Source: a virus. Taken from it: a stretch of 26,287 nucleotides of DNA. The notes beneath the pieces were generated by a model, which was given only the letters and a program-made list of their open reading frames with translations, did not search any database and had not been told where the DNA came from. This document shows, piece after piece, positions 1 through 13,651 of the stretch (positions within the stretch are counted from its first letter, which is position 1; each line of letters starts with the position of its first letter). The DNA is taken from the IMG/VR virus record IMGVR_UViG_3300005939_000043, positions 1 through 26,287 of that record. The stretch is one strand, 5' to 3'. The translations under genes and the position numbers were made by a program.

Positions 1-3000
1 AAGTCAACAAATCTTATAGCCTTTCCAGATGTCTGAGCATATAGCATGAATGGTCTATCTGGGTCTGTTGATGGATTAGTCCCGGCTTCAAATCTCTTTA
101 CTGATCTATAAAAGTTTTGGAGTTTTTGAGACTGGACTCCAAATGCTATTCCTCCATAGATTTTCATCGTACTTGTTATATCTTTCCATGCTTTATTAAC
201 ATCATCATCAATATTATTTAATGCAGAACTCATTGCTCCGACTCCAGTAGCCATCATCTTTCCTAAAGGACCGAATCCAAATCCTCCCATCGGTCCAATG
301 ACTGCCCACTTAGAAGCATCAATTCCTAACGTCTCTTCAGCTGTTCTTTTGACTGCGGTTCCTGCCGCATACCATCTTATTAATTTGTCCCATTGACGAC
401 GAGATATCCATTTTTTTAATGTATTGGCATATTCAAATCCCCATTGTGTAAATTGCAATGCCACTTTACCGCCTAGCCCATAATGGAATCTTGACTCTGA
501 TCCTTTCCTGTATGGAAATTGTGTATCATCTATCTTATCCTGAATCATCATGTTCAAGGCTTCTTTAACCGCAGTTTTATCTCCGTCTATTCCTTCAAGA
601 AGTCTTTTTCTTACCATATCTTGTAATACTGGATTGAAACCATCTAGATTGATATTTTTCTCAAAATCTTCGTAACTTATTTTGCCACTCCTCACTAATT
701 CCCAGTTTTCGTCAAATCTTCCTTTTGTAGAAAAGTATGCTTGGGTTCTATTCGTTGTATCTCTTGATGCGTAAGGTATTAACGTGGCTGCATTTATCTT
801 TTTTACTGCATCGACAGATTTACCGACAACACCTTTTCCTTCTGCTGCAAATACTTCTGATCCGTATGGTACACCACTTTGAACCAAAAATCCGGCTTCT
901 CTTACTTCTTGTTTTCCTCCAGGTTCAAGTGCTTTTTTAACACCATAAGCATACCATTTTGGTCCAAACTCAGGATAGTTCATTAATGGACTTTGCATTG
1001 AATTCCTAACTACTGGCATTGGTCTTCCACCAAGTGCCCCAGCATAAGAAAGTGACATTGCTGCATCGATTGATTGTTTTCCTACATTTTCTGGAATATG
1101 TCCATTCGTTAGCTTGCTAACTTTTTGACTAAGTTTGTCTAATAAAAATGTTAAGTTATCTTTATATCCAAGTTTTTCTTGTAAATAACTAAGCGCGTTT
1201 TTTCTAATATAGTTAGGTGCTTCGTCTATAACATTCTTCGCGTTTTCAACTGGCTCTGCAAGAAAGATTTTCTTTGCAGTGGCGCCCATGTATACATCGA
1301 ATAATGCTAGTGCATTATCTTCTACATGACTAAGCATTCCAGTTCTTTCGAAAGAGAAAAATGGTCTAAGCTCTGCTGGAAGTTCATTTGATTTATATCT
1401 ACTATAGGTTCCTCCAGTTCTGGCCAGAGATGGTCCATATTCGCCAAAAAACTCTCCAAGATCTAACTCTTTTCCATAGAGTTTTTTCATTATTAAATAT
1501 TGCTCTTTGTATTGCTTTATAAACCAGTCTCCGATCTCTGATAATTCTGCTTTTTGTATATCCGTAAGCCTATCGTTTTGTAATACAGTATCTTTGTTTC
1601 CCCTCACATAATCATCGACAAGTCTCATTTCTTCTGTATTATTTCCATGCTTCCCGGTGACTTCTCGTGCCGCGGCTTTCCATCTATCTGTAAAAACTTT
1701 AACTTGTCTTGTTGCAAGTTCTATCGGCATAAAAACTTCAGAATATACTGGTACTCCAAGTTCTTGTTCCGCCGCAGCCATCCAATCTCTTGTCCTGCTT
1801 ACCCATGGACGAACCATGAAAGCTTTCTCAAGGTCTGGAGACGTTGGGGTAGTATCGTTGAATGCAAGAATAGCTTCAGAAACTTTATAGGCTTCATCTT
1901 GATCTAGTTCGTGCAAGCTATCTTTCCCAGTCATTACCTTGACTGTTGCGCGAATTATTACGTCTGGCAAACTTCGATCAACTGCTAAAGCCTGTATTTG
2001 TCCAATCTGCTTCTTAGTAACAACTTTATTATTAAAGCCTTTCAGTGGCTTTGACATTACTGATGGAATAATTCTTTCGCTATGTGGCGTTACTGGTTTT
2101 GATCCTGCGATTGTTGCTGTTCCGGTTGTTTCTTGTCCTGGTAATTGTTGAAGGCCTGTTCCACCTCCTGTTGGATCTGTTGAGGAGATTTCCCCTCCGT
2201 CGATATTAGCGATATTAGTCTCTTTGGCATGTAATTTTGTAAAAACAGTTTCAAATTTTTCTAAGTCAAATACTCCAAGTTGCCCAGCACTTTCAGCTTC
2301 AGTTATAGTTTCTGGCGTAGCTGGACCAACTTTTGATATGTCTAAATATATTTCTCCATCTTCTTCCCATGTCCCTATATGATTCCCTGGCTCTAGGAGT
2401 TTCGGAAGGTTGGTTTGTATGAAAGATGTCACGGCTCCTTTGGTAAATGTTTCCACTGGAACCTTTGTTTCGAGTCCTTTGTATGGAGAATAAGCATATC
2501 CTTTTACTGGGACGTCTCCAGATAGATTGATAGTGACTCCTTTATTTTCAACTGTACTTTTATATGCTAAATCTCTAACGCCTTGATATTCTGGAGCAAG
2601 TCCAGCTCCTTGAGTTAATCCTGTTGCTAATTGAGTATTGTCGATAATTGGTGATACTTCTGAGACTTGTGGTTCTGTATATCCAAGACTCGTTAATGAT
2701 CTGGCGATATCTTGAGTTGCTCCAATGCTTCCGTCTGGTCCAGCAACTTGCATTATCGAATCGATTGCAGATTTGCCAGTAATTCCTTCTGGTAAATTTT
2801 CTACAGCTTCAATTCCAAGAGATTCTTGTTCTCCTCTATAAATACGATTCAATTCGTTATAGGCATTTACTTCTACCGGTGCATCTTGAGGAAATGTATT
2901 TACTCCTTGCTCCGGTACTGCTGGGCTAGTCACTGCTCCAGGTATTGCGCTGGGTGGCACAATTCCAGAAGTTGCGACTCTTTCAGCTGCGACTTTTGTC

Positions 3001-4055
3001 ACTGCTCCAGCTGCTATTCCTCCGGTTGCTTGGGCCGGAGTGACTGCTGCTGGGCTGATTGGGTTTGCTGTTGTAATTGCCCCAGTTGATTGCGAAGTAT
3101 TCTTAACAATAGTTTCCAGTCTTATTTCAGTTCCGTACTGTCCTGTGGTTACGTTTGATTTACCGAATTTCTTCACGAAAAAATCTTTTGCTGTTTTTGC
3201 AACAGATCCTTTTATATCAACGAGAGTATATTCTACTTGTCCTTGTCCTACTGGAGTTCTTTTTATCGCAGTATTTTTAGCAACTTTAACATATGTTGAT
3301 TGTTGATTCTGTACTCCAGTTCCAAATTTTTGTGTTGCGGTTGGATCAATCTTAGTTTCTATTTTAGACTTGAGAGTTTGTTTTGAAACAAAACGATCTG
3401 TATTTTTTTGTGTTATGGTTTTTGTCCCAGGAGACTTAACTAATCTTTCCTGAAATGCAGATGACCCTAATTGAAACATCGAATAAAGGATTGCCAAATC
3501 ACCGGATGTTTCCCCTGTTGCTTTAATTGCTGATGATACTTTTCCAAGGCCCATTTCCCGTCCTTCTGCATATGATCCTCCAAATCCTCTAACCTCACCA
3601 AGCCATGGTAAATTATAGCTCATACCGATTCCTTCTTCTCGATATATATCTTTTGCTGTACGATTTTTATCTAACGAAGCTCTTCCTCCAACCGATATAT
3701 CATATAAGGTTTGTGCTACCTTGAATGGAACTTTTAGTAAAGATTTTCCAATCATTGGTCCTTTATCTTTAAGCTGTTCGTTCTTCCATTCCATTTTTTC
3801 GAATTGACCCATCTGATCCCAGTTTTCTGGAGTTTCTCCTTCTATGTTAGAAACAAGTTCTTCTCCAATATAATCATACCAGTGCGTTCCTTTGTCTTCC
3901 TGAACTGGAGCTTGCTGTGCTATATTTACTTGATTGTCTCTTACTTGCTGAAAAAGATCAGATTGGTTTCCTTGATCTGTCTGTGCTTTATCTATTGGTT
4001 GACTCTGTTGCGGTTGAACAGAATACTCTGGTGAATATATATCTTCTCTTGGCAT
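1..4055 (-). CDS. Giant phage virion protein, probably internal/ejection type (C-terminus beyond left edge)
   Basis: The frame is open from an ATG at 4055-4053 to the left edge: 1351 codons with no stop, and the 3' end is missing. Residues about 315-390 and 618-651 are rich in Ala, Pro, Gly and Thr and look like flexible linkers. From about residue 660 the protein is mainly helical, with an Asn/Arg/Gly-containing segment around 998-1035 (SYAGALGGRPMPVV) and a Gly/Met-rich hydrophobic stretch near 1250-1275 (GPMGGFGFGPLGKMMATG). Size, position at the end of the packaging-portal operon and this mix of linkers and helical parts fit the large internal or DNA-ejection proteins of short-tailed phages. 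That role is inferred; no catalytic motif was recognised. It starts 21 nt after the 448-aa gene with no Shine-Dalgarno sequence. A tail or polyvalent enzyme protein is the alternative. Confidence 0.85.
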   Translation of the reverse strand, partial: MPREDIYSPEYSVQPQQSQPIDKAQTDQGNQSDLFQQVRDNQVNIAQQAPVQEDKGTHWYDYIGEELVSNIEGETPENWDQMGQFEKMEWKNEQLKDKGPMIGKSLLKVPFKVAQTLYDISVGGRASLDKNRTAKDIYREEGIGMSYNLPWLGEVRGFGGSYAEGREMGLGKVSSAIKATGETSGDLAILYSMFQLGSSAFQERLVKSPGTKTITQKNTDRFVSKQTLKSKIETKIDPTATQKFGTGVQNQQSTYVKVAKNTAIKRTPVGQGQVEYTLVDIKGSVAKTAKDFFVKKFGKSNVTTGQYGTEIRLETIVKNTSQSTGAITTANPISPAAVTPAQATGGIAAGAVTKVAAERVATSGIVPPSAIPGAVTSPAVPEQGVNTFPQDAPVEVNAYNELNRIYRGEQESLGIEAVENLPEGITGKSAIDSIMQVAGPDGSIGATQDIARSLTSLGYTEPQVSEVSPIIDNTQLATGLTQGAGLAPEYQGVRDLAYKSTVENKGVTINLSGDVPVKGYAYSPYKGLETKVPVETFTKGAVTSFIQTNLPKLLEPGNHIGTWEEDGEIYLDISKVGPATPETITEAESAGQLGVFDLEKFETVFTKLHAKETNIANIDGGEISSTDPTGGGTGLQQLPGQETTGTATIAGSKPVTPHSERIIPSVMSKPLKGFNNKVVTKKQIGQIQALAVDRSLPDVIIRATVKVMTGKDSLHELDQDEAYKVSEAILAFNDTTPTSPDLEKAFMVRPWVSRTRDWMAAAEQELGVPVYSEVFMPIELATRQVKVFTDRWKAAAREVTGKHGNNTEEMRLVDDYVRGNKDTVLQNDRLTDIQKAELSEIGDWFIKQYKEQYLIMKKLYGKELDLGEFFGEYGPSLARTGGTYSRYKSNELPAELRPFFSFERTGMLSHVEDNALALFDVYMGATAKKIFLAEPVENAKNVIDEAPNYIRKNALSYLQEKLGYKDNLTFLLDKLSQKVSKLTNGHIPENVGKQSIDAAMSLSYAGALGGRPMPVVRNSMQSPLMNYPEFGPKWYAYGVKKALEPGGKQEVREAGFLVQSGVPYGSEVFAAEGKGVVGKSVDAVKKINAATLIPYASRDTTNRTQAYFSTKGRFDENWELVRSGKISYEDFEKNINLDGFNPVLQDMVRKRLLEGIDGDKTAVKEALNMMIQDKIDDTQFPYRKGSESRFHYGLGGKVALQFTQWGFEYANTLKKWISRRQWDKLIRWYAAGTAVKRTAEETLGIDASKWAVIGPMGGFGFGPLGKMMATGVGAMSSALNNIDDDVNKAWKDITSTMKIYGGIAFGVQSQKLQNFYRSVKRFEAGTNPSTDPDRPFMLYAQTSGKAIRFVD

Positions 4056-7262: not shown

Positions 7263-8999
7263 TTATGGGGTTATTGGATTTACTGGAACAGCTGCGCCAC
7301 CAGTGGCGTGCTGATTCGCCATATTAACTGCGCCTTCTTGTCCAGCAGAAGTCTGATTCCCTGGTGCTGGTCCCAATCCCTGATCATTAGATCCTGGCGT
7401 ACCTTGCTGTTCCTCCGGTGGTGGTTGCAATAATATTCCAGGTTGGCGAGCAATCTGTGGACCAAGAAGCGGATCTTTGAGATCTCTCTTCATCCTCTTT
7501 TGTTCTATCTTTGGCTGAGGAATTCCGAGGTTCTTCTGGGTCGTAGTGAGTGATTGTACTCCTGATTGTAGTTTGTTTAATTCGTCGATGATGTTTCTTA
7601 GTAAGGTTGAGATAATACTGACTTCGTTTGTATAATCGCCCATTATAATTTCTTTTGTTTCTGGCCAATATTTTTCTAATAATTTGAATATATTCACATT
7701 CAAACTTCTCAAACTTTTTTGATACCTTTTAATCTTTGGATTCAATTTCCTGACAACTGACTGAAGAGCCATTCCCATGGCCCGTCCTGATGGATTCTGA
7801 TTTTGTATAGTTGACATGAGTGCCTCTGAGATTCCAGAGACATCAAGTATTGCAGTTCTCCTGCCGCCAACAAAATTGCTAGTAGCATAAGGATCACCGC
7901 TACGCTGTATTGGGTCTAGCTCTCCTTCGTCTGGCATGTTAAATATCTTCGATAGCCCATGAACCAAGACTTCCATTCCGTCAAGATTTTTACCTTTTAA
8001 GTTTATCGTTGATAAGAATTTAAGAGCATTCGCTAAATCATTATTGACTCTTGTATAGAATAACTGTGGATCGATAACATCTTCTATGTCGGATCTTCCG
8101 TACGGATGGTTAGGTACATAGATATTTTTTATAAACTCGAGTGGTACAAATCCCCATCCATGCCAATACCAATCTACAAGCTCGTCTTCTAGGAAGATTG
8201 CCATTACATCTTTCGTCCAATATTCATTTCTGCTAATTAAAGATTGATAGGTTTGCTGAGAATTAATATTTGGGTTTGATCTAAATCCAATTCGTGACTT
8301 AGCTTTATATTTCTTCAAAAGATCTTTCATTGCTATTCCTCTCTCGCTGAGATTTTTTTCGTATAGTCGCGCTGCCTTCATTGGAGAGATAGATGTCGTA
8401 TCGATGAAGCCATAAAGTTTTTTATAGTTTTCGTCTTCAAAGATTGGTCGAATATTTGCAGGATTCTCAACATTAAAAAAGACCATTTTCCAATCATCTT
8501 TATTCTTACTATTGTTTTTTTCTAGCATCGGTCCCTTTAGGTAACTATCACCATAAAGAGATCCGCACTTTGAAAGCTCTGGAAATATAATATCATCAGC
8601 ATCATTATCGTCGTAAATCTTTTTCAACATTTTTTCTTTGAACTCTGCTTTCATTTCTAGAAGTTCGTCAGTTTCGTCCTGAGAAGGGCAATTTACCTCT
8701 ACCGGAGCATCAAAAAGAAGAGATGAGAAATTATCTACTATTGGTGCGCAGTAATTATCTGTTCTCTGACTTGCTCCAGGCGGCTCGTCATGATCCCATT
8801 GATCTCCACGATAGAACTGACCCAATGTCTCATAGCCAACGAATTGCTTGCCACTTGATCCACGGGTTGCAGAAATACCATTCAACCTAAATTCTAGGTC
8901 TTTTTGTGTTTCACCATCATGGTCTAGGTATTCTTGTTTTAATGACTCTTCGAAGCTTGTATGCTCCTTTGAAGTCATGTCTGTTTTGTATTCTAACAT
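7263..8999 (-). CDS. Phage portal protein
   Basis: The portal forms the dodecameric ring at one capsid vertex through which DNA is packaged and ejected. The 578-aa length is typical of portals. An N-terminal FYRGDQW (residues 62-68) followed by a helical region, and the central DWYWHGWGFVPLEFIKN and HPYGRSDIEDVIDPQ segments, match the wing and clip-type pattern of SPP1-like and short-tailed phage portals. The final 110 residues are Gln/Pro/Gly-rich and probably disordered. It directly follows the large terminase (5 nt gap), the classic neighbour. The leader carries no convincing Shine-Dalgarno sequence. Family assignment rests on motif pattern and context. Confidence 0.88.
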   Translation of the reverse strand: MLEYKTDMTSKEHTSFEESLKQEYLDHDGETQKDLEFRLNGISATRGSSGKQFVGYETLGQFYRGDQWDHDEPPGASQRTDNYCAPIVDNFSSLLFDAPVEVNCPSQDETDELLEMKAEFKEKMLKKIYDDNDADDIIFPELSKCGSLYGDSYLKGPMLEKNNSKNKDDWKMVFFNVENPANIRPIFEDENYKKLYGFIDTTSISPMKAARLYEKNLSERGIAMKDLLKKYKAKSRIGFRSNPNINSQQTYQSLISRNEYWTKDVMAIFLEDELVDWYWHGWGFVPLEFIKNIYVPNHPYGRSDIEDVIDPQLFYTRVNNDLANALKFLSTINLKGKNLDGMEVLVHGLSKIFNMPDEGELDPIQRSGDPYATSNFVGGRRTAILDVSGISEALMSTIQNQNPSGRAMGMALQSVVRKLNPKIKRYQKSLRSLNVNIFKLLEKYWPETKEIIMGDYTNEVSIISTLLRNIIDELNKLQSGVQSLTTTQKNLGIPQPKIEQKRMKRDLKDPLLGPQIARQPGILLQPPPEEQQGTPGSNDQGLGPAPGNQTSAGQEGAVNMANQHATGGAAVPVNPITP

Positions 9000-9004
9000 A
9001 GTTT

Positions 9005-10747
9005 TTATCCGATAATTCTTTCGCTGATGTTAAATGATTTTGTTTTTATTTCTTTATTTTTATTGTCTGGAATATTTATAATTTGCTCTGGCTTATCGGC
9101 AAGTATATTTAGATTAAATACTTTATTTCTATGACCAGAGAGCTTCTTTTCGCAGAACCATATTGGTAGTCCGAATGCCATTACTTCATCTTGCTCGAGC
9201 TTGCTATCGTCAATGCGATAATTACCGAGTTGCTCTTCTAGATCAGCAATATAGTACGATCTTACCTTGCCAAAGTCTGGATTTAATTCTTCAATTCTTC
9301 CATCTTCTGTTGTTTTGACTGCACGACCGCTTGTTAGTGCTCTTGCCATGAGGAAAAGCATTTCATCTTTCGGATTTCCTCCACTCGTGAAGCTGAAATC
9401 GTATATATGACGGACGTGCATCTCTCTGAGCATTTTCTTTATCATAGTTCCTCCCATAGAAGATGAATCATGAATAATCCTTGCATCATTGAAATCTTGT
9501 TGTAATATTTTAAGTTTTGCTAGAACTGCATACGGAGATCCTCCTTTTATTGATTCCCGGAAGACTACTTTGTATAATACTTTGTCATTTTTCGGCTTCG
9601 CTTGGCTATTGAGAACGTCTAACAGCTCTGTATAGTCAAAGATATAGAAGACTGTTGGATCACCTGTGTCGGAAAATCCCCAGTCAGCACCGATAATGTA
9701 GTGCTTATTTGGTTCACCCATCTGCAATGGAGTCTCTCCTTCCCATAATCTTGATACTGCGATGTTTGGAAGAAGCTTTGCTCCTGAAGTGACAAACTCT
9801 CCGAAGGCAACTTGCCTATATTTTTCAGGATCTGTCTGTCTAATTGCTTCTAAAGTGATACTTTTTTCTTCTTCGCCAATAAATATATTCTCTGATAGCT
9901 TACCAAGAAGAGTAAAGAAGCCCTTTTTAAGACCAATTCCTTGCTTTACTATGCGTTGATAGTAAGTATGAGATGGTTTATCAACCTCTGGAGTGCCAAT
10001 AATGTCTAATGGACCACCAGAATCAATCAACCTAGATTGAATCTTTGCAGGCAACTCCTTGCGAAGATGCAGAGATTGAGGTGCTTCATCGTATGAAATA
10101 TAGAAGAATTGTGTTCCGGCTAATGATGAAGCCTGATCTTCTCCTGTTGGAACGCCTTTGATCGTTGCGTTATTATTAAAGATTATTTCGCGCCTGGTTT
10201 GTTTGTGATCGACTAGAAATCCTTGCAAAATACAATTATTCCTGACTTTCGCTCCATCCCATTCGTAAATAAACTTATTATCGAATATATCAATGATATA
10301 TCTATAGGCTGCATCAACCTGTAATGAGTGAGGTGAGATATTTAAGGTACTATATCGGACGTCATGAATGTATTCCGGTGGACCCTTACATCCGATCTTA
10401 TAAAAATTATACCATATATGTTTGACAGATGTAACAAAGGTCTTGCCAAATCTATTTGCTGGGCACAAAATGTTCTTCAAAAATGGGTGGATCAGTAACT
10501 CTTCTAACTCTGGCAATTCTATACCTACTGCAACAGCCAGCTCATGTGCTCTTTTTATTTGAGTCTTTGTTGTCAGCCAGAGCCAAATCTTTTGACTAGG
10601 ATGAAATTTCAGTCCTAGAAAGTGCTCTCCAAAAAAAACAGGATCTTTTCTCCCTTTTGCAATTGCTTCTACCAAAGGAAGAACTGTTTCCCTTTCTTGG
10701 TCAGACATTTCTTTTATAGTTTTTGAGTGATTTTTGTTATTCTGCAT
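9005..10747 (-). CDS. terL: Terminase large subunit (packaging ATPase-nuclease)
   Basis: This motor translocates DNA into the prohead and cuts it. The ATPase half shows a Walker A-type loop NRFGKT (98-103), Walker B with catalytic Glu in FFYISYDE (214-221), and a coupling-motif GT at 251-252. The nuclease half has the RNase H-like acidic residues: D355 in GADWGFSD, D427 in IIHDSS, and D520/E521 in EQDEVMAFG. At 580 aa it is of normal length and looks intact. Its start overlaps the 3' end of the preceding gene by 11 nt, so the two are translationally coupled, consistent with small-large terminase order. Confidence is high because all expected active-site residues are present in order. Confidence 0.95.
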   Translation of the reverse strand: MQNNKNHSKTIKEMSDQERETVLPLVEAIAKGRKDPVFFGEHFLGLKFHPSQKIWLWLTTKTQIKRAHELAVAVGIELPELEELLIHPFLKNILCPANRFGKTFVTSVKHIWYNFYKIGCKGPPEYIHDVRYSTLNISPHSLQVDAAYRYIIDIFDNKFIYEWDGAKVRNNCILQGFLVDHKQTRREIIFNNNATIKGVPTGEDQASSLAGTQFFYISYDEAPQSLHLRKELPAKIQSRLIDSGGPLDIIGTPEVDKPSHTYYQRIVKQGIGLKKGFFTLLGKLSENIFIGEEEKSITLEAIRQTDPEKYRQVAFGEFVTSGAKLLPNIAVSRLWEGETPLQMGEPNKHYIIGADWGFSDTGDPTVFYIFDYTELLDVLNSQAKPKNDKVLYKVVFRESIKGGSPYAVLAKLKILQQDFNDARIIHDSSSMGGTMIKKMLREMHVRHIYDFSFTSGGNPKDEMLFLMARALTSGRAVKTTEDGRIEELNPDFGKVRSYYIADLEEQLGNYRIDDSKLEQDEVMAFGLPIWFCEKKLSGHRNKVFNLNILADKPEQIINIPDNKNKEIKTKSFNISERIIG

Positions 10748-11285
10748 TTTCTTGAACTATAGCACCTTCAAGCTGGTCTACAGATCCTTCTCCTCCGTAT
10801 TGCGCGCTCTGAAGCATGTCTTCAAACATACTTGTTTTTCGTTTCTCGGCATTTATCTTAGCTACCGCAGTCATTCTTGAGTCTCTTGCATTCATGGTAC
10901 TAAAAAACCACGCCATTCTTTTCGCTATTGGTATTTGTTCCAATAACTCTGGCTTGTCTATTACTTCTTCTAGCGTAATGTCTGCGATAGTAAGAATCTT
11001 TCTAAGAGAATTTTGTTCCATCTTCATGTCAGTGATTGCGCTGTCACTAACTCGGTTCATAATCTTATTAGTTTTTATAGCAATCTTTTTATCGATCTTC
11101 GAAACGTGAAAGTTCCATTGCCTATAAGATATTGTAGGATCTAGAGTCTCAACATATTTCTTATGAAAATCAGCACTGGTCATGTGTCTTCCCACTAGCT
11201 CATACTTCTCCATTATTTTGGAGAAATATTCAGATTTCTGTATCGCTGTTATTCTTATTTTTTTTAACTTTTTTCGTTGTGTCAT
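10737..11285 (-). CDS. Putative terminase small subunit
   Basis: This 182-aa protein is basic at the N-terminus (MTQRKKLKKIRIT), predicted almost wholly helical, with an acidic Gly/Glu-rich tail. It is the first gene of the leftward operon and overlaps terL by 11 nt. In tailed phages that position is usually occupied by the small terminase, which recognises the packaging site and forms a ring with N-terminal DNA-binding helices. I see no strong sequence signature of the family, so the call rests on context, size and helical composition. The start lies about 15 nt downstream of the inferred transcription start at about 11300. A regulatory DNA-binding protein is the alternative. Confidence 0.65.
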   Translation of the reverse strand: MTQRKKLKKIRITAIQKSEYFSKIMEKYELVGRHMTSADFHKKYVETLDPTISYRQWNFHVSKIDKKIAIKTNKIMNRVSDSAITDMKMEQNSLRKILTIADITLEEVIDKPELLEQIPIAKRMAWFFSTMNARDSRMTAVAKINAEKRKTSMFEDMLQSAQYGGEGSVDQLEGAIVQENAE

Positions 11286-11306
11286 TAGTGTTGATTACTT
11301 GCTATT

Positions 11307-11335
11307 ATTATAATACTTTGAATGTCTTTCTGCAA
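11307..11335 (-). promoter_or_regulatory. Promoter for the leftward packaging/virion operon
   Basis: On the minus strand, -35 TTGCAG (11335-11330), a 17-bp spacer, and a perfect -10 TATAAT (11312-11307) form a sigma-70-type promoter. The predicted start is near 11300, giving a leader of about 15 nt before the ATG at 11285. Confidence 0.75.
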
Positions 11336-11336
11336 C

Positions 11337-11345
11337 TTATCCACA
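11337..11345 (+). promoter_or_regulatory. DnaA-box sequence TTATCCACA
   Basis: This is a perfect match to the bacterial DnaA box consensus, immediately behind the leftward promoter. A second perfect copy in the opposite orientation lies at 13312-13320, so the two bracket the non-coding region. Replication use is inferred; a single 9-mer can occur by chance. Confidence 0.5.
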
Positions 11346-11359
11346 GGTTAGCATAATTG

Positions 11360-11475
11360 TATAATTAAAAATAAAGAGTAAACTATTATTAGTTGAGAAT
11401 ATCTAAAAAACTAAATGCAATACATAGCAAACAACCTAGCAGACCATACCAGCCGATAACAAGGTTGGTTTTTTT
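11360..11475 (+). ncRNA. Possible short terminator-bounded RNA (about 100 nt)
   Basis: A perfect TATAAT (11360-11365) without a clear -35 box is followed about 90 nt later by the intrinsic terminator at 11448-11475. No convincing gene lies between. A 14-codon reading frame (ATG at 11415, stop TAA just before the terminator loop ends) is present but untestable here. A small regulatory RNA or an attenuated leader of the structured RNA downstream is possible. Confidence 0.4.
11448..11475 (+). terminator. Intrinsic terminator
   Basis: ACCAGCC (11448-11454) pairs with GGTTGGT (11463-11469) over 7 bp including one G-U, with an 8-nt loop, directly followed by a run of six T. The G-U pair exists only in the plus-strand RNA, which fixes the direction. 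Confidence 0.75.
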
Positions 11476-12152
11476 ATATAATATAAAAGAGTTATGGCTT
11501 CGATACTGCGTGTAAGTAGGGCTTCAACTGTTCTTCGAAAAAAATCTATTGCATAGATTCTTAACTCGGGTGAAGTCATCCATTCCTCTCTAATATATTG
11601 CGACCTTCTAAGGGTGGGTCAGGGCAGTACCTTCAAAAAAAATCTCATAATATTTAGACATAGAAAACGAATATACAAAAAACCCAATTTTGGCTCACAT
11701 TAAGAATTAGTCTGAAGTTTCTTATCTAAACTGAGTAGATTCTTATTTCAGACAAACCTGTGGACACACAGACAAAATCTGCCCACCCCTAAAAGTACAC
11801 AATAAAAAATATATAACACGAATTAGATTAATAATCTAAACCATCACTGATGGTAAATCGCCGTGCGTGTGGCCTAAATCTCCACCATTAATAAAGCGGC
11901 GCGTTCAGAAGGCCCGGAAGTAATAACGACCACAGAAGGCCAAGCTGATCCAACGTCAAGTCTGTGGGACCTTCCTGGTTGAAATGCCAGGACGGGTACG
12001 AGAACGGGCGAATAGCATATAATTGAGTGTTATTTCTTACCTTCGACACACAAGGGATGTAGGACCAGGCAAGTTTGGAGATAGCTCATGTAATAATATA
12101 CATATATTAAATACATAACTTTAGCCAATCCCCTTGCTCGCCTGGCCCAAGC

Positions 12153-12180
12153 AAAAAATCCCCTTATAATAAAGGAGATT
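12153..12180 (-). terminator. Minus-strand intrinsic terminator inside the structured region
   Basis: In minus-strand RNA, the complements of 12172-12180 and 12057-type pairing partner 12157-12165 form a 9-bp helix (one G-U, which would be a C-A mismatch in plus-strand RNA) with a 6-nt loop, followed by six U from the A-run 12153-12158. The source of such a leftward transcript is not evident. Confidence 0.5.
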
Positions 12181-12575
12181 GATTGCAAGTTTTATACCCA
12201 TCGAAGCTCTGAGTTTTTTCTAGTAGATTATAAGCTGTATGTACCTATAAAATGTTCGTAAGTATTAACCCAGGATAGCTCTACAGGTTGAGAAAATCCG
12301 AACTCTATAAGATCCTAGCATGAGGAATATTATCGTGTCAATAAGCGCCGATTGAAAAAAAATATATATAGGAATTGCTATATAGGGAATATCCATTAAG
12401 CGGAGTGTCCTCTCCCCCGATCGTAATCGGGTTCTGATCACAGCCTCGAACTATACGCTTATAGTTGGGGGAAATGACATTTCGTCGAAAATAATTGAGG
12501 ATATCCTATAAGACAAAGAAGAGATTCAAATCTCTCCCGTTGCAACTCCTCGCCTCCTGTTGTTACAAGCTATTG

Positions 12576-12612
12576 CTATAGTGTAAAACACTCTTCCTAT
12601 AGTGTTTTTTTA
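12576..12612 (+). terminator. Intrinsic terminator with a competing hairpin
   Basis: ACACT (12588-12592) pairs with AGTGT (12601-12605) over an 8-nt loop and runs into seven T (12605-12611). An identical AGTGT at 12580-12584 could instead pair with the same ACACT, destroying the terminator, so the element may switch between two forms. Confidence 0.65.
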
Positions 12613-13057
12613 TTGTCACACTGGGATGACAGGTGCTACAAATGGTTACAAACTGATACATAGTGATAGCATTGTAGATACACTTTGAGAAAACCCTGTG
12701 TTATAGAGGTAGAATCCTAGAATGCTAAGATCGCTCTTGTATGACCCCTCACTACCTTTTCCAGTAGATGGTTTTCTACTGTTGTACATTTGTTTGCAGA
12801 GGTGTAGACAACCTGTACACAATATCACACCTATTGCAACACAATGTATCACAATGTGTACAAACACAGTGTACCCCCCCGTGTACAATGTGTACAAGTG
12901 CTGGCACAGTGGGCAAATGTGTAGTGTGCAACACAATGGAGACAAAGGTGTTGAAGAACACTATAAGGGACACAAGGGTGCAACTGCTTGCATTGTAGGT
13001 AAAAACAAATGTAAGCGAGACACACGATGAAGACAACTAATAGGAAGGGGAACAATT
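12613..13057. repeat. Non-coding tract with clustered TGTACA palindromes
   Basis: TGTACA occurs exactly at 12783, 12814, 12857, 12882 and 12891, and TGTACC at 12870, all within 115 bp. The surrounding sequence repeats ACAATGT, CACAATG and GTGTAC in degenerate form over about 400 bp. Reading frames without stops occur on both strands here, but their products are Cys/His/Thr-rich nonsense made of the repeat, so I call no gene. A cluster of short palindromes fits a multi-site protein-binding region such as an operator, replication iterons or a partition site. Confidence 0.6.
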
Positions 13058-13087
13058 GAGGCGAAACATATTCGTCTCTTTTTTTTT
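13058..13087 (+). terminator. Strong intrinsic terminator
   Basis: GAGGCGAA (13058-13065) pairs with TTCGTCTC (13071-13078), 8 bp with one G-U pair, a 5-nt loop, followed by nine T (13079-13087). It closes any rightward transcript across the TGTACA tract. Confidence 0.85.
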
Positions 13088-13386
13088 GTTCGACGAAACT
13101 ATATCTATTAAGTGGAGAAGATTACTATAAGGCGTTTCGTTGGTGATACTCTTCTGGGTTGGTCTTTACTATATATGTTGAAAACAATGGGCGAGCCGGC
13201 GAGAACGGGACGGATCGGATTAATGATGAGATATTGACTATAAGGCAAAAAGACTTACGCCTAGCGGCGAAGCTTCGGATGATCTTATTCTTTTTTTTTG
13301 TTCGGCGGGGCTGTGGATAACTCATGGCATTAAATAAGGGGATTTTTTGTGCTTTTATATAGCAAGCTAGCGTTGAGTTTGGGAAG
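13088..13386. other. Non-coding segment with duplicated motifs
   Basis: No gene is supported. Two identical runs of nine T followed by GTTCG(A/G)CG occur at 13079-13095 and 13291-13307. ACTATAAGGC occurs at 13124-13133 and 13237-13246. A 10-bp palindrome CGAAGCTTCG lies near 13269. The 16-mer ATAAGGGGATTTTTTG at 13334-13349 is an exact inverted copy of 12152-12167. A GC-rich patch lies at about 13190-13220. These suggest small RNAs or regulatory duplications, but none can be assigned. Confidence 0.4.
13312..13320 (-). promoter_or_regulatory. DnaA-box sequence (TGTGGATAA on plus)
   Basis: A perfect reverse-complement DnaA box, about 2 kb from and in opposite orientation to the copy at 11337-11345. 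A third perfect copy at 20894-20902 lies inside the 3' end of a gene and may be incidental. Confidence 0.5.
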
Positions 13387-13421
13387 CATTGTCAATCATT
13401 GAAAAGCATTGAAAACTATTG
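13387..13421 (+). repeat. Four helically phased (C/T)ATTG repeats at the early promoter
   Basis: CATTG begins at 13387, 13397 and 13407 and TATTG at 13417: exactly 10-bp spacing, so all sites face the same side of the helix. The last copy overlaps the -35 box of the promoter at 13419-13447, which suggests an operator or activator array. Confidence 0.7.
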
Positions 13422-13447
13422 ACATGTATTATAGCGTATGCTAAAAT
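13419..13447 (+). promoter_or_regulatory. Main rightward early promoter
   Basis: A consensus -35 TTGACA (13419-13424), a 17-bp spacer and -10 TAAAAT (13442-13447), preceded by TGC as an extended -10. The start is predicted near 13454, about 30 nt before the first gene of the right module. Confidence 0.85.
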
Positions 13448-13483
13448 AGACTTAGGATTGATTAATAAGTTTATTAAAAAAAC

Positions 13484-13651
13484 ATGGCAGAAATAAAACA
13501 CAAAAAATTGAGTAAAGAAATGTTATTAAATTACTTGGTTGATGTGCTGGGATATGATGAGCAAGAGGCAAAGCACGAAATATCAGTTTACCGCTTGCCG
13601 GAGCTGTTGAGCGTTGAGCAAGTCGATGAGTGTATAGCTTATAACTCTTAA
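13484..13651 (+). CDS. Small acidic protein, unknown (55 aa)
   Basis: This is the first gene after the early promoter. The ATG is preceded by an A-rich leader (AAAAAAAC) and no Shine-Dalgarno motif. The product is helical and acidic (LGYDEQEAKHEISVY, LLSVEQVDEC). No family was recognised. As the promoter-proximal gene it may be a host-takeover or regulatory factor, which is inference. The stop is 8 nt before the next start. Confidence 0.65.
   Translation: MAEIKHKKLSKEMLLNYLVDVLGYDEQEAKHEISVYRLPELLSVEQVDECIAYNS

Follow-up and report, generated by a model that had tools for sequence, protein, structure and literature searches.

A probable large structured noncoding RNA with a pseudoknotted core, possibly of an undescribed class, beside the terminase genes of a phage

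Does the gap beside the terminase genes of this phage specify a large structured RNA and, if so, of what kind? The window (the whole stretch of DNA analysed) is a 26,287-base phage record in which the terminase large subunit gene (9005-10747; phrog_2 match, E 5.7e-18) and an SPP1-like portal gene (7263-8999) are read leftward. A 182-aa protein encoded at 10737-11285, also leftward, matched no family and is taken, from its position, for the terminase small subunit. Rightward small ORFs start at 13484, and the 2,198-base (2.2-kb) gap between terminase genes and small genes holds no ORF above 102 aa. An earlier note on this DNA read 11480-12612, inside that gap, as about 1.1 kb of dense hairpins with no gene, closed by an intrinsic terminator, and proposed a giant phage RNA, either a divergent GOLLD or ROOL member or a new class. 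The absence of a gene, and the observation overall, were confirmed: the ORFs of at least 50 aa within 11480-12612 are 53, 52 and 58 aa long, every one on the minus strand, and across eight phages carrying the element 46 of the 48 reading frames through its core are interrupted by stops.

Folding energy was compared with 60 dinucleotide shuffles for each 200-nt window, six windows tiling 11401-12600 and 125 lying elsewhere in the record; the z-scores refer to these windows and none to the entire 1133 nt. On the plus strand three of the six windows fell strongly below their shuffles, with z of -2.98 (11601-11800), -3.54 and -3.32, and -2.8 was reached in 4 of the 125 remaining windows. The others did not, with +1.35 at 12201-12400 and just -1.18 at 11401-11600. 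Minus-strand z-scores were about equal to those of the plus strand, the fold energy of the whole stretch was -325.7 kcal/mol on the minus strand versus -293.6 on the plus, and windows in relatives were equally mixed. Because the z-scores are mixed and the strands alike, energy alone settles nothing and gives no strand. The data support hairpins above the usual density and nothing further.

A search with the terminase protein gave 20 loci and a terminase profile 24, four of them new; the profile approach also found L037, one bacterial bin contig titled Candidatus Omnitrophota. By blastn the window shares 11855-12063 with L006 (78% over 210 nt) and shorter blocks with L010, L013, L018 and L021; L016 was added afterwards. 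The conserved core is present in seven other distinct phages (L006, L010, L013, L016, L018, L021 and L037), contigs L002-L005 being the same phage as the window and so uncounted. In all members it lies upstream of the terminase genes, on the same side and oriented away from the terminase, with 195 to 1778 nt between it and the small-subunit-like gene; it is most distant in L013 and L021, where intervening ORFs reach 134 aa. The core occurs in 8 of the 8 distinct clade phages whose sequence covers the region upstream of the terminase, a count that leaves out L007, L008, L009, L011, L012, L014, L015 and L017, whose contigs end too near the terminase.

Wider searches returned no further member. 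Six phages with 46-54% identical TerL (L019, L020, L033-L036) gave no R1 match with filters off in their available sequence (best 8.6 bits). Neither two core patterns run against viral contigs, nor a 3'-element pattern, nor a portal-protein search added a phage, and one core pattern had zero matches in genome contigs. The single new match of one of the two viral-contig patterns, L027, was judged unrelated by eye from its sequence. A looser core pattern gave 35 stretches, 27 of them new loci, where the best R1 score was 14.8 bits; these were judged chance matches, the sequence of the best scorer, L055, having been read. Blastn found no match for the window's gap among 50,697 phage records, nor for the L010 RNA region among those records and 72,556 plasmids, and 384 genomes from the phylum of L037's bin, under stricter filters, yielded only the already known contig. 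In L019, L020, L033, L034 and L035 the gap beside the terminase genes holds a different conserved noncoding stretch of ~200 nt, with GGGCTAATCC / GAGCTAACTC, in some GGTAGTGCTACC, in five of five ACAGAGCA and in some a hairpin with a T-run; it had no Rfam match at gathering thresholds.

The best conserved part of the element is the core, which consists of six helices:

11856..12015, plus strand: conserved pseudoknotted core (homologue alignment, covariation, held-out L037)
11860-11864 with 11896-11900, plus strand: helix 1, which encloses helix 2 (94.3% of cells paired)
11869-11871 with 11883-11885, plus strand: helix 2 (95.0% of cells paired)
11901-11905 with 11952-11956, plus strand: helix 3 (100% paired; both sides changed in 3 of 5 pairs)
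11911-11915 with 11937-11941, plus strand: helix 4, first pseudoknot stem (97.1% paired; both sides changed in 3 of 5)
11930-11936 with 11961-11967, plus strand: helix 5, second pseudoknot stem (100% paired; both sides changed in 6 of 7)
11969-11977 with 11988-11997, plus strand: helix 6 hairpin (95.2% paired; both sides changed in 6 of 9)

This model was drawn on the first seven sequences, with 500 shuffles and partners slid by 1-3 columns as controls. Across 237 base-pair cells 97.0% are paired, versus a shuffled mean of 75.0% (sd 1.9), and pairing falls to 34.8-48.5% when the partners are slid. Both sides changed in 21 of 34 pairs (11.2 in shuffles), the covariation score is 0.727 versus 0.257 shuffled, and none of the 500 shuffles equalled the core in pairing, both-side changes or covariation score. 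Covariation among homologues, which the earlier note had named as a check on its reading, is therefore present above both shuffled and slid controls, as expected of a structured noncoding RNA. The pseudoknot that the note had considered possible is present as well: helix 5 crosses helices 3 and 4 to give an H-type pseudoknot, and itself covaries. Since the structure was drawn from the same seven sequences, the held-out L037 is important; it scored 146.9 bits with a model built without the pseudoknot, and forms 34 of 34 core pairs, including the pseudoknot pairs absent from the search model. G-U cells far exceed A-C cells (35 versus 3), which fixes the plus strand, and RNAalifold gave -26.5 for the plus and -19.97 for the minus strand of the core. 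Over seven sequences 52 of the core's 160 positions in the window are invariant, and a large share of these lie in unpaired stretches, AGTAATAACG and GGTACGAGAACGGGCGAATAG among them. From the alignment, paired mutations seem to have preserved the core fold while the sequence changed. The locus carries a conserved, folded, plus-strand element with no sign of a protein.

Downstream of the core lie a second covarying domain, a linker and the terminator:

12146..12192, plus strand: hairpin with an A-rich internal loop (weak; pairing drawn by hand in 7 of 8 members, RNAalifold no consensus)
12205..12253, plus strand: conserved strand GCTCTGAGTTTTTT ... TGTATGTAC (homologue comparison)
12254..12303, plus strand: 3' domain, a double hairpin with GATAGCTCT as its conserved loop (covariation, 7 of 8 sequences)
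12304..12586, plus strand: variable linker, its length free among members
12587..12611, plus strand: terminator hairpin and T-run (stem 12587-12592 / 12601-12606, T-run 12605-12611)

In the 3' domain both sides changed in 12 of 12 pairs, a level matched by 2 of 500 shuffles, and 76.2% of cells are paired versus 45.3% shuffled; these counts leave out L006 because of an insertion and include L016, whose loop has diverged. Covariation there is 0.798 versus 0.251 shuffled, and sliding the partners by one column brings it down to 0.33 and 0.31. The 3' domain result as a whole depended on how the alignment was trimmed. RNAalifold on a wider 3' block showed no strand preference with one alignment (-5.71 plus, -5.89 minus) and no consensus fold with a second. 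For the A-rich hairpin the helix arms were hand-picked, so the count is illustrative, and L016, which is without this hairpin, was left out. Within 12146-12219 most members have a conserved U-run behind the A-rich internal loop, and a U-A-U triple helix is conceivable.

From core start to T-run the members span about 0.56-1.16 kb. The terminator loop and 3' arm CTTCCTATAGTGTTTTTTT are conserved, and in seven of eight members (window included) a 6-8 bp stem, in some with G-T pairs, stands at a T-run in the matching place, which bears out the closing intrinsic terminator; the run in L037 is just TTTT, and L016 fails. A generic terminator scan did not list the hairpin at 12587-12611. The reverse strand of the 3' element carries CACTATAGGAAG, which we take to resemble a phage-polymerase start; a T7/SP6-like promoter was considered and rejected, the terminator reading fitting better, though it leaves unaccounted for the conservation of bases past the T-run. 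RNA_pol (PF00940) had no match in six records, but no control genome came over the cut-off, so this negative is no proof of absence.

The 5' end is less sharply bounded:

11448..11475, plus strand: terminator-like hairpin with a seven-T run, upstream of the RNA (terminator scan)
11490..11822, plus strand: possible 5' extension, hairpin-rich (z -2.98 window; candidate start ~11490)
11823..11853, plus strand: 5' hairpins TTAGATT/AATCTAA and CCATC/GATGG (arms picked by hand)

By eye, L006 has a similar terminator-like hairpin in a like place. Five relatives carry hairpins of differing sequence at the position of 11823-11853, and blastn of 11480-11822 against relatives found no shared sequence. 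Of the 11480-12612 extent first given (~1.1 kb), the part backed by conservation runs from ~11823 to 12611 (~0.79 kb), and 11480-11822 is a possible extension. The candidate start near 11490 comes from a weak TATAAT match, with a score of 9 and a background rate of 1.87 per 630 nt. Five relatives (L010, L018, L006, L016 and L037) have promoter matches of 11-12 on a home-made 13-point scale, their chance frequency uncomputed, which predict starts 103-595 nt ahead of the core; scores in the window, L013 and L021 reach 9-10 only, which equals background. A generic promoter scan of 11280-13500 gave 4 sites where shuffles gave 8.1, and no site immediately before the RNA. Before the window's rightward genes, 13419-13447 is promoter-like (11 of 12, with TG), so the RNA need not be their leader. 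We consider it quite probable that the element is transcribed as a unit ending at 12611, and infer that it is made as a separate RNA.

Comparison with known families found no match. Against Rfam 15 (including HEARO, raiA, introns and ribozymes) the window had 0 matches at gathering thresholds and, at E <= 10, four unlike hits, each on the minus strand, which we put down to chance. Seven relatives' loci gave only three tRNAs at gathering, all in L025, the L006 piece being without the 3' part of the RNA, some of which was covered in a weaker scan of five relatives' loci; that scan gave nine weak hits, judged chance. The models for GOLLD (RF02032), ROOL (RF03087) and OLE (RF01071) were silent at E <= 10 in six of six phage records, with no control genome over the cut-off. 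At that sensitivity, the proposal of a divergent GOLLD or ROOL member was not upheld.

OLE, described mostly from Bacillota, is likewise a large ornate bacterial RNA; it differs by the absence of an RF01071 match in those records, with the same limit on the control, and we know of no OLE in a phage. Neighbouring tRNA genes have been reported for both GOLLD and ROOL; to our knowledge large ornate RNAs are few, and these phage ones are without known function. Like GOLLD, the present element is a large structured phage RNA with a conserved and a variable part, and in one member, L021, tRNA genes lie next to the locus and inside it. Unlike GOLLD, it has tRNAs nearby in just one of eight members, and its best conserved part is the 5' half, whereas the conserved portion of GOLLD is described in the 3' region (PMC12286853). 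ROOL, in the account given there, is phage-borne, several hundred nt long and pseudoknotted, with a low-conservation linker, all of which apply here; the silence of RF03087, again with no control genome over the cut-off, sets the two apart. In L021 (4998-6524) tRNA genes for Gln and Asn lie just upstream of the core on the same strand, a doubtful third was called beside them by ARAGORN only, and a tRNA-Met lies inside the RNA linker on the opposite strand. We found no recognisable description of such an RNA in the open-licence PubMed Central literature. Covariation in both core and 3' domain upholds what the earlier note proposed, a large structured RNA in a phage and possibly one of a new class; GOLLD or ROOL membership was not supported by these searches, and the full 1.1-kb length is partly backed. 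On sequence comparison, the RNA possibly represents an undescribed class, not a member of GOLLD, ROOL or OLE.

As to its function, we give an even chance to a free-standing large noncoding RNA of undescribed class that acts in trans as a stable scaffold; the scaffold role itself is conjecture, and binding or oligomers are predictions. Transcription of the RNA would begin in the gap next to the terminase genes and run rightward until the hairpin terminator stops it at 12611, giving ~0.79 kb from the first conserved hairpin and up to 1.12 kb from a start near 11490. Its 5' half would fold into a compact core built on the H-type pseudoknot, with ~50 invariant bases, and its 3' half would comprise the conserved-loop hairpin and the free-length linker. 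Core and conserved loop may then offer the surfaces on which the RNA binds or assembles with a phage or host protein, or with copies of itself, the linker being spacer. Three features favour a separate scaffold RNA: its size, the conservation of the terminator and the promoter match that the rightward genes have of their own. Against it, the window has no convincing promoter before the RNA, homologues are few (n=8), RNAalifold gave no consensus for 12146-12192, nor for the 3' block in one of its two alignments, and possibly coding ORFs of 60-107 aa, at positions not common to members, overlap the locus in L013, L018, L021 and others. The adjoining repeat array also points to a cis role at an origin:

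12612..13110, no strand assigned: ACAC/GTGT repeat array (21 motifs in 500 nt versus 1.3 expected)
12690..12757, no strand assigned: second conserved element GAGGTAGAATC ... CCCCTCACTACCTT, ~60 nt, inside the array (7 of 8 members)

The array resembles iterons and is therefore a possible replication origin, or another protein-binding array, on sequence grounds. Relatives have 20 (L006), 16 (L010), 8 (L018), 26 (L021), 15 (L013), 5 (L016, in 289 nt only) and 16 (L037) motifs where 1.0-3.4 are expected. The second conserved element gave poor consensus folds (-1.39 and -4.83). Three plus-strand copies of ACTATAAGG (12960, 13124, 13237) and two of TCTTTTTTTTTGTTCG[AG]CG (13077, 13289) are possible further small transcripts or regulatory sites. 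Together, the repeat array and the fixed address favour an RNA tied to the candidate origin. We regard as possible, at about half the weight given to the trans-acting scaffold, a giant phage RNA class unrelated to GOLLD and ROOL whose pseudoknotted core shares one conserved cassette with a replication origin and acts in starting or timing replication or packaging.

Slightly more doubtful is an RNA-based replication origin proper, in which the transcript, or read-through into the array, would start phage DNA replication or control it, whether as a primer precursor or in a regulatory role. ColE1 RNA II is a precedent for RNA in replication initiation. Here the RNA ends at the array, which has at least 15 motifs in six of eight members, but a terminator stands between the two, and L018 and L016 have few motifs. 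RNA and array lie at the point where the genes change direction and the cumulative GC skew reverses, although gene orientation would also explain the skew. A scan of 30 phage proteins named no replication initiator or polymerase; it left out most small genes, the largest open frame (3-4055) and named ParA/ParB and RepA searches. A plain primer would also not be expected to require so many invariant bases. Among cluster A mycobacteriophage prophages, RNA-based origins are described in which a noncoding RNA is proposed to act in replication of phages without RepA, and the noncoding-RNA regions of Alma and LadyBird are required for prophage stability (PMC7157519). The likeness is a phage noncoding RNA proposed for replication; the deleted regions there are 0.4-0.5 kb long, adjoin parA and are shown to be functional, and the passages on them in that source describe no conserved fold and no link to terminase genes (PMC7157519).

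The scaffold reading also competes with a cis-acting leader, which we think unlikely: a long rightward transcript would begin with the folded RNA, which would carry RNA polymerase through a series of terminator-like sites (12611, ~13087 and ~13299) and on into the operon of small genes, as modelled on put- and EAR-like antitermination. A hairpin and T-run at 13058-13087 and a T-run at 13291-13299 lie on the same strand, and downstream of the RNA there are rightward ORFs in the window and in L006, L013, L018 and L021. However, the good promoter match at 13419 is downstream of all three sites, the later T-runs have no common pattern among relatives, and the RNA far exceeds the antitermination RNAs known to us. 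A catalytic or intron-like RNA, with the pseudoknotted core as ribozyme, is very unlikely: the invariant, often unpaired core positions would suit it, but there is no Rfam intron or ribozyme match and no recognised gene is interrupted. A DNA element or chance hairpins, to which the mixed, strand-symmetric energies would conform, are the least credible reading given the G-U excess, covariation beyond controls and the pseudoknot formed in held-out L037.

A large-RNA class unrelated to those known, with a compact core, a fixed address by the terminase genes and an adjacent repeat array, would offer a handle on the role of such RNAs in phages. The 160-nt core is of a size that suits chemical probing and cryo-EM, and the 2.2-kb cassette one that suits a replication assay.
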